64,000 nucleotides of DNA, taken from Caldisericaceae bacterium. GTDB taxonomy: Bacteria > Caldisericota > Caldisericia > Caldisericales > Caldisericaceae. The stretch is taken from NCBI GenBank assembly GCA_027023025.1, contig JALVXB010000025.1, forward strand, positions 1-64,000. Reading direction: 5' to 3'. Below are positions 32,721 through 46,779 of this stretch, piece after piece. Under the pieces are notes generated by a model that was given only the letters and a program-made list of their open reading frames with translations, was not told the DNA's origin and ran no database searches. Position numbers and translations under genes: made by a program. Numbering within the stretch: position 1 is the first letter of the stretch; each line of letters opens with the position of its first letter.

Positions 32721-32807
32721 GGAGGGGTGGCCGAGTGGACGATGGCACCGCACTTGAAATGCGGCAGGTGATGAGCCTCGGAGGTTCGAATCCTCTCCCC
32801 TCCGCCA
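32721..32807 (+). tRNA. trnS: tRNA-Ser (TGA anticodon)
   Basis: An 87-nt tRNA with a long variable arm. Acceptor GGAGGGG (32721-32727) pairs with CCCCTCC (32797-32803), discriminator G, encoded CCA 32805-32807. The anticodon loop CTTGAAA gives TGA at 32755-32757, and the T loop is GTTCGAATC. It stands alone at the left border of the defence-type island; tRNA-Ser genes are frequent integration sites, though I found no duplicated 3' end on the far side. Confidence 0.96.
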
Positions 32808-32871
32808 TACCGCTAAGTTTTTTTGAGTTATCACAGTTTGATTTTCGTTGTATTTAATCCTCTTAGATAAT

Positions 32872-32959: not shown

Positions 32960-33766
32960 TCAATTTCTTCTAGGATTTTGAGCTTTGTGTTTACTCTTTA
33001 ACATTTCTGTTATTCTGTCAGCTGCTTCGATACGCTCATGAAACATATTTTCAGAAGAAAGTGGTATTGCCTCATGCCAGATCATTTCAAGATTTGCTTT
33101 CCAATCTCTTGCAGTTCCACCGAAATTTAATTCCAAAATTAGGCGATCGTCTGTTCGCCATCCGTACATATAGAGTTCAATATTTCCTTGTTTACCGTCA
33201 AACATTGCCGCACTCATTGTAGGTATTTGCTTATATACTCGAATGTGAAAATTATTGGGCGCCTTTTTCCATACGGGCAGAAAGTTATTGAAGAACCAAG
33301 AAAGCTCCCGAGGGTAAGGTCCCTCTCGTCTCAAAAACCTTGCTATGGTAAGTATAAGTTCTTTTTCGCAAGGATCTGGAACAAGTAGTCTTACTTGTAC
33401 ACCATTGCAAGATTTGTCTTCTAACAGTCCGGTAAAGCCGTCCAATTTTGGAAGTGAAAGTCCCATGAAGAAAATATCGGATGTTGCATTTTGTATGAGG
33501 CTGCTCAATGGAGCAACCTTATCCACATCAGCTCGTCTGAATATGCGTAATATTCCCAAATTTTGCAAGGTTACGCCAGTTTTTCGATACCCTACCTCTA
33601 ATCCTAGAAGATATGCTAATATTACGAGCCCCGAAGCTATACATCCCGTCAAGACGGCTATTTGAGCCGGCCCAGATAATCCGGAAGTATGGAGTTGGAG
33701 ATAAAAACTTACGCCACCAATAAGCCAGGCTAATATACCAAATCCAATCCCTATTCTCTTCAACAT
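32960..33766 (-). CDS. Two-TM protein with PLD-like (DUF5919-type) domain
   Basis: A 268-residue protein with two N-terminal helices (about 6-24 and 34-57) followed by a soluble domain. Patterns such as SDIFFMGLSLPKLDGF (about 111-126) and VQVRLLVPDP (about 139-148) resemble the phospholipase-D-like/DUF5919 fold in which a short helix follows a beta strand. No complete HxK(x)4D pair is visible, so activity is uncertain. Membrane-anchored PLD-like proteins recur in mobile and defence regions; here it sits between tRNA-Ser and an IS remnant. Confidence 0.55.
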   Translation of the reverse strand: MLKRIGIGFGILAWLIGGVSFYLQLHTSGLSGPAQIAVLTGCIASGLVILAYLLGLEVGYRKTGVTLQNLGILRIFRRADVDKVAPLSSLIQNATSDIFFMGLSLPKLDGFTGLLEDKSCNGVQVRLLVPDPCEKELILTIARFLRREGPYPRELSWFFNNFLPVWKKAPNNFHIRVYKQIPTMSAAMFDGKQGNIELYMYGWRTDDRLILELNFGGTARDWKANLEMIWHEAIPLSSENMFHERIEAADRITEMLKSKHKAQNPRRN

Positions 33767-33782
33767 GATGCATCATCCTACA

Positions 33783-33956
33783 TTATCCAATTATTACTGG
33801 TTTAGTCAAAGTTTTTTTGTATTCTTTCCCCCATCTGTAGTACATATCTTGTCCTATACAATACCTTCTATATACAGATACAACGGTACTATTGTCCTTC
33901 TCCACTTCTGCAAGGATCTGGATGATCTGCTCTACTGTAAACCTCCTTTTCTTCAT
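33783..33956 (-). pseudogene. IS3-family OrfA transposase remnant
   Basis: On the minus strand a 57-codon frame starts MKKRRFTVEQIIQILAEVEK and continues to YYRWGKEYKK. This is the helix-turn-helix N-terminus of IS3-family OrfA (form FTxEQII.IL.E.E, then YRWxKKY). GGAAAGGAGAG lies upstream of the ATG. OrfA is normally ~90-110 residues and followed by OrfB with DDE; here the frame stops early and no OrfB is present. It is therefore a decayed insertion sequence. Confidence 0.7.
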
Positions 33957-34001
33957 TGTCCAATCACTCTCCTTTCCTTACTAATTTAATTTTAATACTT
34001 C

Positions 34002-34194
34002 CATAACCTGAGCACAAAACACTCTCATTATATTTGTCTCAGATTTGGGGAGCAGGACACAATTTCTACTAATACTTGGCGTGTATCTGGGGTAGCCAAA
34101 GGTGATTCGGTGAGAACTGCAGTCTAAACCAAATATCTGCTTTTTGTCTGAGTGTGAAGGCGGTGAAGTATGTTGTAGTGAATAGAGAGTTATG
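34002..34194. other. Long imperfect palindrome between IS remnant and 4TM gene
   Basis: CATAAC (34002-34007) and CTCTC near 34023 face GAGAG near 34184 and GTTATG (34189-34194); CAGATTTGG near 34040 faces CCAAATATCTG near 34120. The 82-codon minus-strand frame across it has no good RBS and an unlikely composition, so I treat the region as non-coding. It may be a decayed mobile-element end. Confidence 0.35.
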
Positions 34195-34225: not shown

Positions 34226-34729
34226 TCATTTTTCAACTTCTTTATATAGCAGCACATGAATGCGCTTTAGAACCATAAATAATGTCAATAAAAAAAGGAC
34301 CATCAGATAATACGCTATAAAGTTGAAAGTTAGAAATATTAATGTAGAACATCTACTATCAGAAATGCTAATAAGAATTAAGAAAACAACTGCCCAAATA
34401 GCAATTAAAATGCAGAATGAAATATTAGAATAAATTTCTTTTAAAAATTTAATTTTGAGCCTATTTTCATTTTTTGATTTTTGAACAATATCATATATTA
34501 GAAGTAGCAGGTTAAATAGAAGTGCTGCAAATATAGATAATGAAGTAATAAGTATAGATATAAGATTATGTGTCAATAGAATATTGAAATAAGGAAATAT
34601 AACTGCAAAAAACAAGGGTGTGACAAAAAATAAAATAAAGTCCCCAATTTTGTATTTGTTTGTTCTGTAATCTTTAAGTGTGGAGATATGATCTCTTATA
34701 ATCTTCGAAACGTTTACTTTATCGAACAT
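34226..34729 (-). CDS. Four-TM membrane protein of island operon
   Basis: A 167-residue protein with four hydrophobic helices (about 29-50, 53-80, 102-123 and 130-154) and short basic ends. ATG 34729 overlaps the previous gene by 11 bp; a TTG start 15 nt earlier is possible. The family is not recognised. A small 4TM protein translated with a larger soluble partner is the layout of two-gene antiphage systems such as Kiwa or Bunzi, where the membrane protein carries out or regulates membrane damage. Membership here is only inferred. Very AT-rich compared with the housekeeping genes. Confidence 0.6.
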   Translation of the reverse strand: MFDKVNVSKIIRDHISTLKDYRTNKYKIGDFILFFVTPLFFAVIFPYFNILLTHNLISILITSLSIFAALLFNLLLLIYDIVQKSKNENRLKIKFLKEIYSNISFCILIAIWAVVFLILISISDSRCSTLIFLTFNFIAYYLMVLFLLTLFMVLKRIHVLLYKEVEK

Positions 34730-35654
34730 TATTATCTCTCGCAATCTGGTTTATTAAGTCTCGGAGCAATTCTCGCGAAATTGCGTCAATACTATTAAAT
34801 AATGGGTGTCCATTATCTCCAAGCTTTATGTTTTGTGTAATATCTATGTATGGCCGTATTTTATTTATGTCTGAAAGATCTATTGTTCTTTTATTTCCGT
34901 TTATATCAATCTCAATTTTCACTTTTTCATATTTAAAATCCTTAATTTCGATTAGTTCATTTAGTTGCCTTTTGCCATTTATGACTTCGAGTATACGTCC
35001 GATGATTGGAATGCGTCCTCTTCTTTTTGCAGAAATAACTAACTCTGTATACCCTTCTTCCTCTTTATGATCTTGGGTGTCATACGCGTTTGCAATATCC
35101 GAAGGAAAAGAAAATCTAATGAATCTTAATTTTAAAACTCTTCCATGTCTTAGATACTCATTTATTAGCTGAGAAGTTACTAATGGATTTATTTGTAATT
35201 CTAGGGAAGAAAATCGTGTTTTTACATATTCATTTATGTCTCTTTCAAAGTTTGTTCTTATTCCATACTGTTTGAATCTTTGTAAAATTAATATTCCTTC
35301 ATCAGCATTTTGTGGTAAGTACATTAAAAGATAAAAAGGCAACATTTCAGCCTCGTTTATATGTCTTTTATAAGTTGTCTTTTCCGAATTTGCATCAAAA
35401 AGCTCAGTTTCGTAGCCATATTCGCCAGTTTCAATAATTCCTGAAAATATTCTATTTTGAAGTGTAAAATGCCTTATTCTTAATATTTTCTTTTGTGATT
35501 GCTGATGCCCTACACTATTCTTGCGGTTGGAGAGATAGTTGTTCATTACATATAGAAAATCCTCTCCGCCACTTATATTATCAATATGGACATATTTATC
35601 GCTTTTTTTGTCTTTTATTCTTATTGTATATGGAGCAAGTGAATATCGTGCCAT
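34719..35654 (-). CDS. Soluble protein of island operon, possibly DUF4747-like
   Basis: A 311-residue soluble protein with no signal or membrane segment. Recognisable stretches are ETGEYGYETELFDANSEK (about 97-114), NEAEMLPFYLLMYLPQNADE (about 123-142) and GILILQRFKQYGIRTNF. These resemble, from memory, DUF4747 proteins, one component of the Bunzi antiphage pair; I cannot confirm this without a profile search. Its end overlaps the 4TM gene, so the two are probably made together. GAAGGTAGG precedes the ATG. It is the third gene after the restriction-modification pair. Confidence 0.55.
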   Translation of the reverse strand: MARYSLAPYTIRIKDKKSDKYVHIDNISGGEDFLYVMNNYLSNRKNSVGHQQSQKKILRIRHFTLQNRIFSGIIETGEYGYETELFDANSEKTTYKRHINEAEMLPFYLLMYLPQNADEGILILQRFKQYGIRTNFERDINEYVKTRFSSLELQINPLVTSQLINEYLRHGRVLKLRFIRFSFPSDIANAYDTQDHKEEEGYTELVISAKRRGRIPIIGRILEVINGKRQLNELIEIKDFKYEKVKIEIDINGNKRTIDLSDINKIRPYIDITQNIKLGDNGHPLFNSIDAISRELLRDLINQIARDNNVR

Positions 35655-35822: not shown

Positions 35823-36965
35823 CTAAATAATTTCATATTCCAACAACTCCTCAATTTCTCTTTTTAATTTTTCTAATTTCTCAATGAGTTTATCCACTAT
35901 TAGAAGTTTTTCAGCAATTTTGTTTTGCACAGTAATAATATCGGGAATTTTTACCTTTTGTTTTTGGGCATATTCCTTGTTAAAGGTTGCATTATCACTT
36001 TTAGAGGTTACTAAATTAAAGAACAATTCTTGATATTGATAAGCAAACCATCTCAAATTTATTTTGTCTTTCCAATTTTTTTTGGGTATAAGAACATATG
36101 CATGATCATTTGTTGTAAACTCCTCTTTTGGGATATATGTCATTTTTCCGGCATAGCCATTTCTTGCCACTAAAATACACGGTCCTTTAAAAGTTTTAAG
36201 TTTTTCTCCTTGAGGTTTAGTATTTCTGGAAATGTATCCCATAAAGTTAGTTTTTATTGTTGCACTAGACAAAATAGGAATTTTATCATCTTCGCTCGTT
36301 GGTTGATTATAATAAATAAACTCCTCTGTGAGACCACTGTTGCCTCCTTTGAAATGGATAATTTCTTTTAACTCTATTTCCTGTGTATTATATTTTGTTA
36401 AATCTATTTTTGTTTGTATGATATTTTCTAAATCTCTTAGAGATTGGTCTATATACTTTAACGTATCATTCAACATTCTCTTTTTTTCTAAGTATCTGAG
36501 CTGAATTTTATAATCTGGAATTTCAAAATAAACCCTATCAAACCACTTTGTACTAAAAACACCATTATCACTTTTAGATGTTACATATTGATATAATCTT
36601 TTTCTAAATTGCAATGCAAACCACTGTTCGTTAATCTTGTTGATGTAATCTTCTTTTAATTTTAAAACGCATGCATGATGATTTATAGTAAACTTCCCCT
36701 CCTCTCTTGCTTTGTAAGTCAATAATCCCGCACTTCCATCTTTTGTCAAGACTAAACAAGGTCCAATAAAATATACGATTGATTCTCCATATTTATTTTT
36801 TGCATTTTTTCCTATATATCCTATGGGAACAATATTATTTTGGGAACCTGAAAAAATAGGTATTTTTTCGTCTTGTGAGGCAGGACTATATTCATAAATT
36901 ATCTCCTCAGTAAGACCATGATTACCTGGATAGTAATCGAATATTTCTGACATCTTATATTTCAT
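35823..36965 (-). CDS. Restriction-modification specificity subunit with two similar TRDs
   Basis: A 380-residue HsdS-type protein: TRD1 (about 4-150), central helices (about 150-190), TRD2 (about 200-345) and C-terminal helices (LIEKLEKLKREIEELLEYE). The TRDs are alike: GNHGLTEEIIY versus GNSGLTEEFIY, and VTSKSDNGVFSTKWF versus VTSKSDNATFNKEYA. It directs the adjacent nuclease-methyltransferase to DNA, and similar TRDs predict a symmetric or near-symmetric bipartite site. I start it at ATG 36965, which has GGAGG 8 nt upstream; three in-frame ATGs lie just before. It overlaps the RM gene by 11 bp. Confidence 0.85.
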   Translation of the reverse strand: MKYKMSEIFDYYPGNHGLTEEIIYEYSPASQDEKIPIFSGSQNNIVPIGYIGKNAKNKYGESIVYFIGPCLVLTKDGSAGLLTYKAREEGKFTINHHACVLKLKEDYINKINEQWFALQFRKRLYQYVTSKSDNGVFSTKWFDRVYFEIPDYKIQLRYLEKKRMLNDTLKYIDQSLRDLENIIQTKIDLTKYNTQEIELKEIIHFKGGNSGLTEEFIYYNQPTSEDDKIPILSSATIKTNFMGYISRNTKPQGEKLKTFKGPCILVARNGYAGKMTYIPKEEFTTNDHAYVLIPKKNWKDKINLRWFAYQYQELFFNLVTSKSDNATFNKEYAQKQKVKIPDIITVQNKIAEKLLIVDKLIEKLEKLKREIEELLEYEII

Positions 36966-39000
36966 CCTCTTCTCCTCCATCATCATGTATGGTTTGGGGA
37001 TTAGAATTATTAATTATCTCCAGCAGTGCTTGAAGATCGTTGATTTTTTGCAATATTATATCATCAAATTCCTTTTCTTTTATTCTTTTTAGAATTACCG
37101 GTCGCAAATGAAACTCGCTCAACAAATTATAGAAATTCTCTTCATTGATTCGCTCAATTTCCACATAACCGTATTTCATACCCCCTAATCCTTCCTCTTT
37201 CTCCCTGTCATTTACTTCTCTTTCAAATTTGTGTCTTTCTTCTTCAAATTTTTCTCTGTTGGTTTCGTACAATCTCGCTAGTTTAACAGCACCATCAAAT
37301 TTTTCTTCCAATTCAGGTATATCATCGTGATATTTGGTTCTGTATCTCTTATCACTGTTGGCATAACCATCATAATCTAAAATGAAATGCCAGGTAGGAA
37401 ACTTTTGTATTTCCCCTACTTTGTCGTCTTGCTTCTTTTGCATAAACAGAATATATGTTTTCTCTTTTGTATATGGTGCGAAAGCAAATTTAGTTAAGGA
37501 TATAATCGCGTAAATGTTACAAGTTTTAAGAAGTTTTTTTCTAAATCTTTCTCTTGAGGGTGCTTCCAACGCTCCATCGTTTATTACAATTGCAATTTCG
37601 CCCCCTGGTTTTGTGGCTTTTATTACCTTTTCAGCGAATAACAATTCATATCTTTTCTCATTTGTGAAATCAAAATCTTCTATTTTGGCTTCACCGTCAT
37701 ACTTCCCCATGGGTGGATTGGTCATAATATAATCAAATTCGTTCTCTTTCCATCCTACCTTATCATTCCATCCAATAAGCGAATCATTTTCATAAATATG
37801 GATATGTCCATCACCGACTAAGAACATATTTAATTTGGCTCTGGCTACAGATTTTTCGTCATTATCGTATCCCCAAAAAGTTTTAGTTTGAAGTTGCTCT
37901 GTTATTTTTTTGTTTAATTTCTCATTTATGAAGTAATTGTTCACTAATACTTTATAGGCTTCCGTCAAAAATCCACCAGTTCCACATGCAGGGTCACAAA
38001 TTTTTAAATCTCTTGGGATTAACTCATTTCGCAACAACAAACGAGCAACCATTCCTGTTATATGTCTTCGAGTATAAAACTCTCCAAACTCTTTTTTCTT
38101 TGTCTGTGATGCAAATTCTTCATAAATTGCCCCAAATAGATCGAAATTTGCACCATGAAAATGGTATGGATCCAGTTCTTTATATATCTTTTTGAAATGT
38201 TCATTTTTCAATTTGGACGGAAAAACAATCAAATTTTTGAAGTCTTTGTAAATGTTGTCTTTATATTCGCTTTCATCACCCCATACTTGGTCAACCATCT
38301 TTTTAAACTCTGCTCTTAAATCACCATCTTCACTTTCTGCAACACTTTTCAGCTCGTGCCATAGTTTAATCTCTCTGGGAAGCGTCCTTTTATCCTGTTC
38401 CTTTTCAGAGATATACTTCAACACTACAAAACTAACCGTAGGATCAATTCTTTCATCTCCTTTTTTAAGACCTGCCGAACGATATATATCGGCTAACTTT
38501 TTTAAAGTTACCCTAAATTTGTTTTCAGAAATAGGGCGGGTAATTTTGCTTGTTTTATAGACAACATAAGAGTTATCTGAAGAAACTTGAGCTTGTATTT
38601 TTTGTAAGGCATCAAGAGGAACCAGTTTTGTGAGCACTTTGCCGTCAAGCACGATTTCTTCATCTGTATGAGCATTATAATATCTAAAATCGCTTCTGCA
38701 GTTAGTAATAATGTAATAGTTCAACCCTTGTTTGAGAGCCTTCTCTTTCCCCTGCCGCATCGCATCGCGCCAATCCATGTCACCAACGGTAGAATTTTTG
38801 TGCTTCGCCTCGATAAGAGCAATAATATTTTTCTCAAAATCCTTATTACTTTCTTTTTTAAGAGATATCCAAATATCGCCTCTTTCCCTGCCTGTCTTTT
38901 CTGTAGTAACATCAATTTTACAATTTTCTCGGCTAATTCCTATTTTTTCCAGAGCGGGAATTAAATATTGGATAATATCGTTAGCTTCTTCCTTTTTCAT
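36955..39000 (-). CDS. Fused nuclease/N6-adenine methyltransferase (BcgI-like type IIB RM subunit)
   Basis: A 681-residue protein. The N-terminal 1-130 residues look like an HsdR-N-type PD-(D/E)xK nuclease (GDIW with Asp42, IALIEAKHK with Glu64 and Lys66). Residues ~160-300 are the HsdM helical domain. The methyltransferase has motif I DPACGTGGFL (336-345) and motif IV TNPPM (427-431), where NPPY/F is usual. A charged coiled coil lies near 570-610. With a separate specificity subunit and no helicase-type HsdR, the closest match is the BcgI A/B arrangement, which cuts on both sides of its site. AAGGAGAG precedes the ATG. Confidence 0.8.
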   Translation of the reverse strand: MKKEEANDIIQYLIPALEKIGISRENCKIDVTTEKTGRERGDIWISLKKESNKDFEKNIIALIEAKHKNSTVGDMDWRDAMRQGKEKALKQGLNYYIITNCRSDFRYYNAHTDEEIVLDGKVLTKLVPLDALQKIQAQVSSDNSYVVYKTSKITRPISENKFRVTLKKLADIYRSAGLKKGDERIDPTVSFVVLKYISEKEQDKRTLPREIKLWHELKSVAESEDGDLRAEFKKMVDQVWGDESEYKDNIYKDFKNLIVFPSKLKNEHFKKIYKELDPYHFHGANFDLFGAIYEEFASQTKKKEFGEFYTRRHITGMVARLLLRNELIPRDLKICDPACGTGGFLTEAYKVLVNNYFINEKLNKKITEQLQTKTFWGYDNDEKSVARAKLNMFLVGDGHIHIYENDSLIGWNDKVGWKENEFDYIMTNPPMGKYDGEAKIEDFDFTNEKRYELLFAEKVIKATKPGGEIAIVINDGALEAPSRERFRKKLLKTCNIYAIISLTKFAFAPYTKEKTYILFMQKKQDDKVGEIQKFPTWHFILDYDGYANSDKRYRTKYHDDIPELEEKFDGAVKLARLYETNREKFEEERHKFEREVNDREKEEGLGGMKYGYVEIERINEENFYNLLSEFHLRPVILKRIKEKEFDDIILQKINDLQALLEIINNSNPQTIHDDGGEEDEI

Positions 39001-44520: not shown

Positions 44521-46779
44521 ATGCGCGAAATTCTTGATAAGATACGAAAAAGCGAACACTACGCAGGGCAGTTTGCCCGTATTGTCCACATTCCGCCTGA
44601 AAAAATTCCCGTAGAGGAAATTCCAGATGGAATTAGCGAGTATATAGTGAAATTTCTTAAATCGAGTGGAATAGAAGGACTTTACAAACATCAAATTGAA
44701 ACCTTCAATGCGGTAAAAAGTGGCGGGAATGTAATTATTACGACGGGCACATCAAGCGGCAAAACGCTTGCATTCAACATACCTGTTCTGGATACACTGC
44801 TTTCAGAAAAACTGGCAACTGCTCTGTATATCTACCCAACGAAAGCGCTGGCACGCGACCAGACGGACAAGCTCCGCGCTATCGTAAACGGAGCGTTTAC
44901 TCTTGGCGCATACGACGGAGATACACCGCAGAGCAGCAGAATTTTTTTGAGGAAAAACGCGCACATCATAGTGACAAATCCGGACCTATTGCACATTGGG
45001 ATTTTGCCGTACCATACGAATTGGTCGCGTTTCTTCAGCAGGCTAAAGTTCGTCGTAATAGACGAAGCACATTACTACAGTGGCATACTCGGCACTCATG
45101 TTTCAGAAGTTATGCGCAGGCTGCGGCGCATTTCCAATTTGTACGGCGCACATCCGCAGTTTATTCTTGCAAGTGCAACTTTAAGCAACCCTGACGAATT
45201 TTCTTTTAAACTCGTAGGCGAGCGTTTTGTCCACATAAGCGGGCCTCAGTCGCACCAGTACGGAAAAATATTTGCTCTTTTTAATCCCGCACTTGTTGAC
45301 GAAAAGACAAATACGAGGAGGAGTTATTACAAAGAAGCAGTCTGGGTTACAAAATTACTTATTGATGAGGGCAAGCGTGTGATCGTATTTTCACGCTCGC
45401 GCAGGGGAGTGGAACTTATCACAAAGTATCTTAAAGTAGTGCTTCCTCAAGATAAAAAATCGCTCGTTTCTTCGTACAGGGCAGGGTACTTGAAAGGGGA
45501 AAGAAAACGCATTGAACAGAAACTAAAAAGTGGCGAACTGCTTGCCGTCGTTACGACGAATGCGCTGGAGCTTGGAATAGACATAGGAGACCTCGATGCA
45601 ACTATTATCGTTGGTTATCCTGGCACGATTTCCAGCCTGTTTCAGGAATCCGGAAGGTCCGGGCGCAAAAAGAATTCGCTTACTATTTTCATCACTTCAC
45701 CCAACCCGCTTGACCAGTACTTTGTAAAGGATCCAGACTACCTGTTTTCCAAAAAGTTTGAAGCTGTTTCTGTAAACCCAGAGAACTATTATATTCTAAA
45801 GCCCCATTTGAAGTGTGCTGCGTACGAATACCCGATTGAGCGGAATATCGACACTGAATATTTTGGGGCAAGCGTTAATCCAATTGTAGACGAACTCGTA
45901 AAAAGCGAGGTTCTTGAAGAAAGAAACGGAAGATACTACTATGCTGCGCGTGACTATCCCGCAAACAGTGTGGACATCAGGGGAAGCGGAGGACAGGAAA
46001 TTACCTTAAGAGACGAAGATACGGACGAAGTTTTAGAGCACATTTCTTTTAAGCGTGCACTTGAAGAGGCGTTCAAGGGCGCTGTATATATGCACCTTGC
46101 AGAAACTTATGTCGTAAAAGAACTGAACCTTTTTGACAGGTATGCAATATTAAAGAAGAGTAAAGTAAATTACTATACGGATTCTCTTGAACTGCACAAA
46201 ATTGATGTGAAGAAAGTTTTGAAACAGAGAAAGGCGCTTGGCACGACGCTTTACTTTGGCGAAGTCATAGTAAGCGAGCGGGTCGTAGGATTTATTATGA
46301 AGCGGTACGGAACGGATGCAAAAATCGGTGCAAAGGAACTTGACCTTCCGGAAACTCACTTTGAAACAAAAGCGTTCTGGTTTCCCCTGAGCGAAAGAGC
46401 AGAAAAAACGGTAATAGAAAGTGGAGAGGAAATACCCGGGACGATACACGCCGCAGAGCATATGCTCGTTGCGATGATGCCTTTGCTCGTCGTATGTGAC
46501 AGAAACGACATTGGAGGCGTCTCCCATCCGCTCCATCCGGACTTAAACCGCCCTGGAATCTTTATCTACGATGGGGCAGAAGGCGGCGTGGGGCTTGCAG
46601 AAAAAGGTTTTGATGTGTTTGAAGACCTCGTGCGTTCTGCGTACAAAACTGTTGCAACCTGCCCCTGCGAGGACGGCTGTCCTTCCTGCATATATTCTCC
46701 AAAGTGCGGAAACGACAATAAGCCGCTCAGCAAAAAAGGTTCGATTATACTGCTTTCGGAGATGCTCAGTGAAGAATAG
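44521..46779 (+). CDS. DEAD/DEAH-box helicase with DUF1998 (MrfA/YprA-like)
   Basis: A 752-residue superfamily 2 helicase. Motif I is TGTSSGKTLAFNIPVL (about residues 75-90), with YPTKALARDQ (Ia), VIDEAHYYSG (II, DEAH), LASATLSNP (III), TNALELGIDIGDLDA and QESGRSGRKK (VI). The C-terminal DUF1998/MZB domain has four cysteines (CPCEDGCPSCIYSPKC). B. subtilis MrfA repairs mitomycin crosslinks with the exonuclease MrfB, which is not next to it here. ATG 44521 is chosen because the promoter ends just before it; a longer frame would run through the groES control region. Confidence 0.88.
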   Translation: MREILDKIRKSEHYAGQFARIVHIPPEKIPVEEIPDGISEYIVKFLKSSGIEGLYKHQIETFNAVKSGGNVIITTGTSSGKTLAFNIPVLDTLLSEKLATALYIYPTKALARDQTDKLRAIVNGAFTLGAYDGDTPQSSRIFLRKNAHIIVTNPDLLHIGILPYHTNWSRFFSRLKFVVIDEAHYYSGILGTHVSEVMRRLRRISNLYGAHPQFILASATLSNPDEFSFKLVGERFVHISGPQSHQYGKIFALFNPALVDEKTNTRRSYYKEAVWVTKLLIDEGKRVIVFSRSRRGVELITKYLKVVLPQDKKSLVSSYRAGYLKGERKRIEQKLKSGELLAVVTTNALELGIDIGDLDATIIVGYPGTISSLFQESGRSGRKKNSLTIFITSPNPLDQYFVKDPDYLFSKKFEAVSVNPENYYILKPHLKCAAYEYPIERNIDTEYFGASVNPIVDELVKSEVLEERNGRYYYAARDYPANSVDIRGSGGQEITLRDEDTDEVLEHISFKRALEEAFKGAVYMHLAETYVVKELNLFDRYAILKKSKVNYYTDSLELHKIDVKKVLKQRKALGTTLYFGEVIVSERVVGFIMKRYGTDAKIGAKELDLPETHFETKAFWFPLSERAEKTVIESGEEIPGTIHAAEHMLVAMMPLLVVCDRNDIGGVSHPLHPDLNRPGIFIYDGAEGGVGLAEKGFDVFEDLVRSAYKTVATCPCEDGCPSCIYSPKCGNDNKPLSKKGSIILLSEMLSEE

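Follow-up and report, generated by a model that had tools for sequence, protein, structure and literature searches.

A gene pair in a variable island beside tRNA-Ser

Two overlapping genes on the minus strand, hereafter A and B, lie near the middle of the window (the whole 64,000 nt stretch of a Caldisericaceae bacterium contig analysed here). Gene A (34719..35654) starts with an ATG at 35654 and encodes a 311-aa soluble protein, RexA-like by fold and profile matches and predicted to be a DNA-binding sensor. Its product lacks any hydrophobic stretch (best 19-residue mean 0.75) and has a pI of 9.2 with conserved basic positions, a composition compatible with a putative non-specific DNA-binding dimer, as RexA. 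Gene B (34226..34729) encodes a 167-aa membrane protein with four hydrophobic segments when read from the ATG at 34729; an alternative TTG start would give 172 aa and is disfavoured because B relatives begin with MxxKIN. B is RexB-like by its position and by kinship to the B protein of phage DumpsterDude, and is the predicted effector. A and B share 11 bases, and the S and RM genes precede them on the same strand, which confirms the initial annotation in its reading of a soluble 311-aa ORF and a four-helix 167-aa ORF that overlap and follow the RM pair. Scans for promoters and terminators returned chance-level signals only. The 171 bases upstream of A occur just once in the genome, so that a repeated recombination site of the cassette type is unlikely at this place.

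The island neighbours outside the pair include a specificity (S) subunit (35823..36986, minus strand; Pfam Methylase_S 1.1e-16) and an RM protein (36955..39000, minus strand; Pfam N6_Mtase 2.8e-38), an N6-adenine methyltransferase with an extra N-terminal region. Type I M subunits and RM.BsaXI are among the relatives of this protein in the PDB. By eye only, the extra N-terminal residues read like a PD-(D/E)XK nuclease, and the layout, in which the S subunit has its own gene but an R subunit does not, is Type IIB-like (BcgI/BsaXI-type). Between the tRNA-Ser gene and the pair there is a 268-aa ORF with N-terminal hydrophobic segments (32960..33766, minus strand) that could be another defence gene; its matches to PLDc_2 (E 0.24) and DrmC (E 0.037) both fall below the cut-off. 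A transposase start remnant, IS3 orfA-like by eye (33816..33956, minus strand; translation MKKRRFTVEQIIQILAEVEKDNSTVVSVYRRYCIGQDMYYRWGKEYK), is part of a repeated segment (33816-34060) with an 89% identical copy on contig 5 of the same genome (G000, 44593-44837) and a shorter copy on contig 1.

The left edge of this variable island is marked by a tRNA-Ser (TGA) gene detected by ARAGORN (32721..32807, plus strand). The alignment of the window with G001, a genome of the same genus, ends at position 32811. Beyond this tRNA-Ser site, G001 has genes for a tyrosine integrase, an HNH nuclease and, by eye, a TM2-like small protein, together with a McrB-like AAA_5 protein (contig 28, L110 237-4846). 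For most of the island the GC content is 30-35%, compared with about 40-46% beyond it. Altogether, this suggests that the tRNA-Ser is a hotspot where defence modules are swapped within the genus. The window shows no duplicated tRNA-Ser end that could be a second attachment copy, and we infer integration at the tRNA-Ser only from the island boundary and the sister genome G001. A prophage setting was rejected for this pair, with no phage immunity repressor and no phage gene adjacent to it.

Conservation and spread of the pair

Relatives were sought with the B profile in viral contigs and in genomes of 84,980 species, yielding 32 and 41 loci, respectively; A has no stretch of sufficient conservation to seed a scan of this sort. 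A relative of A lies directly upstream, on the same strand, in all 73 loci found from B alone; the pairing is thus not a matter of chance, and the joint conservation that the initial annotation had proposed as a test holds throughout. The A/B junction ranges from an overlap of 104 bases to a gap of 33 bases in 70 of the 72 loci with a called B ORF; the other two of these 72 have longer gaps, and in the remaining locus (L075) no ORF long enough to be called as B was present. These 73 loci are a lower bound and not a prevalence (short conserved patterns, with tblastn confirmation from close to distant).

Host phyla number at least eight: Acidobacteriota, Cyanobacteriota, Bacteroidota, Balneolota, Pseudomonadota, Planctomycetota, Bacillota and Actinomycetota. 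While the 73 loci lie in prophages and bacterial genomes, the pair is also carried by plasmids and by a Pf inovirus: a protein search of annotated records brought up A relatives from two records of Pf inoviruses, from Acinetobacter, Serratia and Kluyvera plasmids and from a plasmid of the archaeon Natrinema. For the Pf, Acinetobacter, Serratia and Kluyvera records, the gene directly after the A relative has a product matching B. The archaeal case, on a Natrinema salinisoli plasmid (L010 4001-5038), is a distant A relative with no B recognised alongside.

The closest relative of the window A is a Terriglobia (Acidobacteriota) protein, 40% identical, in a tree whose deep branches are poorly supported. 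No other intact B was found among 54 genomes of the window's own phylum, an absence which points to horizontal acquisition of the pair. The sole other trace found in this phylum is a short stretch that resembles B and is interrupted by a stop (L122, G024 contig 26, 2104-2289).

Viral and prophage members repeatedly have repressor domains (helix-turn-helix, S24 and CI-type) upstream of the pair, and the resulting order of repressor, A and B resembles the cI-rexA-rexB order of lambda. More broadly, the neighbours of relatives include phage integrases, S24/helix-turn-helix repressors, transposases, TIR and SEFIR proteins and a Type III restriction enzyme, a plain tally drawn from neighbour sets that took in those of the window and of G001 themselves. 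Co-occurrence with RM genes, which had also been proposed as a check, turned out to be local to this island and not a rule of the family.

Fold and profile kinship to Rex proteins

In phage lambda, RexAB stops phage infection by means of a DNA-binding sensor, RexA, that turns on a membrane channel, RexB. Structure prediction, one of the checks suggested at the outset, gave confident AlphaFold2 models for both proteins of the pair: a pLDDT of 90.1 for A (54 sequences), with a RexA/RdgC fold match, and of 93.7 for the all-helical B (55 sequences). Against the PDB at E <= 0.001, A has three matches only, lambda RexA (8TWQ) and two RdgC chains, RexA being the best (E 5.1e-6) and RdgC the second (2.7e-4). 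RexA and RdgC have a common fold (PMC11077077); RdgC forms a ring that binds DNA, and no membrane gene is paired with it. Whole-chain TM-scores of A are low (RexA 0.30, RdgC 0.38), which could reflect the published domain rotation of RexA. Among viral models, the named matches of A are RdgC-type recombination proteins, and several phage proteins of no assigned function rank above them. For B, the PDB yields no fold match. A residue-level mapping of the lambda RexA DNA-binding residues onto A by HHalign was unreliable and was dropped. As modelled, the pair combines two RexAB features, a soluble partner with a RexA/RdgC fold and an adjacent small four-helix membrane protein. Throughout 59 B relatives, residues P38, M152, K155 and R156 are invariant, which makes them targets for mutation. 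B also has strongly conserved polar or charged residues at K4, H14, D30, N102, K155 and R156.

Searches with known family models were mostly silent. A has no match in Pfam, PADLOC or NCBIfam, and B has no PADLOC or NCBIfam family and a single sub-threshold Pfam match that we regard as noise. PDB sequence searches with both profiles returned chance-level matches only. In PHROGs, A is assigned to phrog_15676 (1.3e-13) and B, weakly, to phrog_15250, both families without functional annotation. Pairs of this kind escape the 2023 models of PADLOC, Pfam and NCBIfam that were applied, but can now be found through the present family.

Comparison with published Rex homologues is more informative. The A-family profile scores 82 bits with gp44 of DumpsterDude, 42 bits with Doggs gp33 and 41 bits with CarolAnn gp44, and the B-family profile scores 91 bits with the DumpsterDude B protein and 72 bits with Doggs gp34, while shuffled controls reach at most 7.8 bits. 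Both proteins therefore have sequence kinship to a published Rex homologue, that of the Gordonia phage DumpsterDude (PMC11077077). There, gp44 and the next membrane protein follow the same soluble-then-membrane order as A and B, although that pair sits in a phage directly after the immunity repressor, whereas the window pair is chromosomal and has no adjoining repressor. Such linkage is not universal among published members, being absent from Sbash and from the mycobacteriophage Butters. In CarolAnn, another Gordonia phage, gp43/gp44 are RexAB-like and both genes are needed for defence (PMC6426606); gp44 is the protein that matches the A profile and gp43 is a 4-TM partner, like B, though with 6.4 bits it does not reach a match to the B profile, and both proteins are longer than those of the window and prophage-borne. 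Butters gp30 has no significant match to the A profile, and gp31 matches the B profile weakly (15.6 bits).

Neither lambda RexA nor lambda RexB matches the A and B family profiles. The likeness to lambda lies in RexA as the best fold match of A, in the adjacent 4-TM partner and in the rexA-rexB order, and the difference in undetectable sequence kinship and in the location of rexAB in the cI operon of a prophage. Sequence kinship to lambda is not used in the literature as a defining RexAB feature, CarolAnn and Sbash being likewise without close kinship. RexABpp of Pseudomonas putida (PP_5643/PP_5644) consists of a soluble, DNA-binding RexA-fold protein of ~36 kDa and a 4-TM effector, both needed for defence, and overexpression of its RexA leads to RexB-dependent growth arrest and membrane damage (PMC12894663). 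It has the same layout as A and B, a likeness drawn from its description, and Pseudomonas members of the present family are similar in layout; unlike the window pair, RexABpp is prophage-borne and lies downstream of a CI-like repressor.

DUF4747 is a weak domain match common to lambda RexA, Sbash gp30 and CarolAnn gp44 (PMC6426606, PMC6426596), and these published Rex-DUF4747 links rest on weak HHpred matches. The initial annotation had been reminded of DUF4747 by stretches of A, and in this it pointed to the right family, given the RexA fold and the CarolAnn gp44 profile match, but not to a Pfam assignment: none of 59 A members matches Pfam DUF4747 at E <= 0.1. DUF4868, the other domain that was meant to name the system, was likewise missing from the families listed for 59 members of each protein family.

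Function and competing explanations

We consider it probable that A and B form a phage-exclusion (abortive-infection) system of the RexAB type, housed in a defence island of the chromosome. Our computations support this with two genes, fixed pairing across phyla, a RexA fold match, Rex profile kinship and an island setting. The reading draws on RexA as top fold match, the Rex homologue profile matches and the constant A-B order, on the repressors upstream of prophage members together with the RM, tRNA, low-GC and swapped setting of the island, and on RexABpp as a proven defence pair of the same layout. By analogy with studied relatives, A would have the RexA/RdgC fold, bind DNA non-specifically as a dimer and act as the sensor: on meeting a state of DNA, or of DNA with protein, that is specific to phage, it would turn on B. 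In turn, B would be an oligomeric four-helix membrane effector whose activity may result in membrane leakage, growth arrest and failed infection. DNA binding, dimer and oligomer states, activation of B, membrane damage and defence itself are all presumed from those relatives. The earlier proposal of a candidate antiphage module made of a sensor and a small membrane protein is borne out by conservation of the pair, its defence island and its RexAB-type kinship, whereas the suggestion of a new system fails since the RexAB kind is already known.

The main rival to this reading is a reversed, Butters-type wiring, in which A would be the antiphage effector and B would hold it at the membrane until infection releases it. 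Butters gp30/gp31 are reported to work in this way, and the weak B-profile match to gp31 speaks for it, but the closer relatives by profile are those of DumpsterDude and CarolAnn, with no significant match to gp30, and both CarolAnn and P. putida use B as the effector and need both genes. Moreover, the conserved K4, H14, D30, N102, K155 and R156 fit an active part for B, so that we regard the reversed wiring as unlikely. More doubtful still is a design of the Kiwa or Bunzi type, which the initial annotation had proposed and which we hold to be extremely improbable. The general design is indeed the same, a soluble protein of ~310 aa with a small four-helix membrane protein, but no KwaA, KwaB, DUF4868 or Bunzi match was found among the families listed for 59 members per protein family, nor did the Bunzi profiles in PADLOC match the window pair or family members, and by fold A is matched to RexA and RdgC. 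Kiwa has kwaA as its membrane gene and kwaB as its soluble gene, a gene order that differs from the soluble-then-membrane order of the window.

A role outside defence has also to be weighed, namely that A is an RdgC-like DNA-binding or recombination accessory which, with its membrane partner, would serve mobile-element maintenance or a lysis-lysogeny switch. In favour of this, RdgC comes second among the PDB matches of A, the CI-Cro switch is also biased by lambda RexA (PMC11077077) and many relatives reside on prophages and plasmids. RdgC function, though, would not explain why a membrane partner is always there, the window copy has neither an adjacent repressor nor phage genes, related pairs are proven exclusion systems and defence genes recur among the neighbours of relatives; on balance, we find this explanation quite improbable, if less so than a Kiwa or Bunzi system.

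The RexAB-type reading has consequences beyond this locus. RexAB was the first abortive-infection system tied to anti-phage defence, and a January 2026 paper puts the number of RexAB-like systems described so far at only five (PMC12894663). The present family is much wider than those five: its paired relatives run into the dozens, span many phyla and occur on Pf inoviruses and small plasmids as well. Most likely, the window pair is RexAB-type exclusion in a chromosomal island that is not a recognisable prophage. We may speculate, giving the idea a small but real chance, that RexAB, rather than being peculiar to lambda, is a large mobile defence family of prophages, inoviruses, plasmids and chromosomal islands in at least eight phyla, whose repressor-free chromosomal branch acts on its own as a fallback for restriction and responds to phage DNA states that appear once restriction has failed.

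Among the mobile carriers, the Pf inovirus PfAC16 (L003 412-1883) has an ORF1 followed by an ORF2 of the same family of pairs. A 2025 Pf survey gives TA and PfsE as the only defence systems of PfAC16 (PMC11878078).
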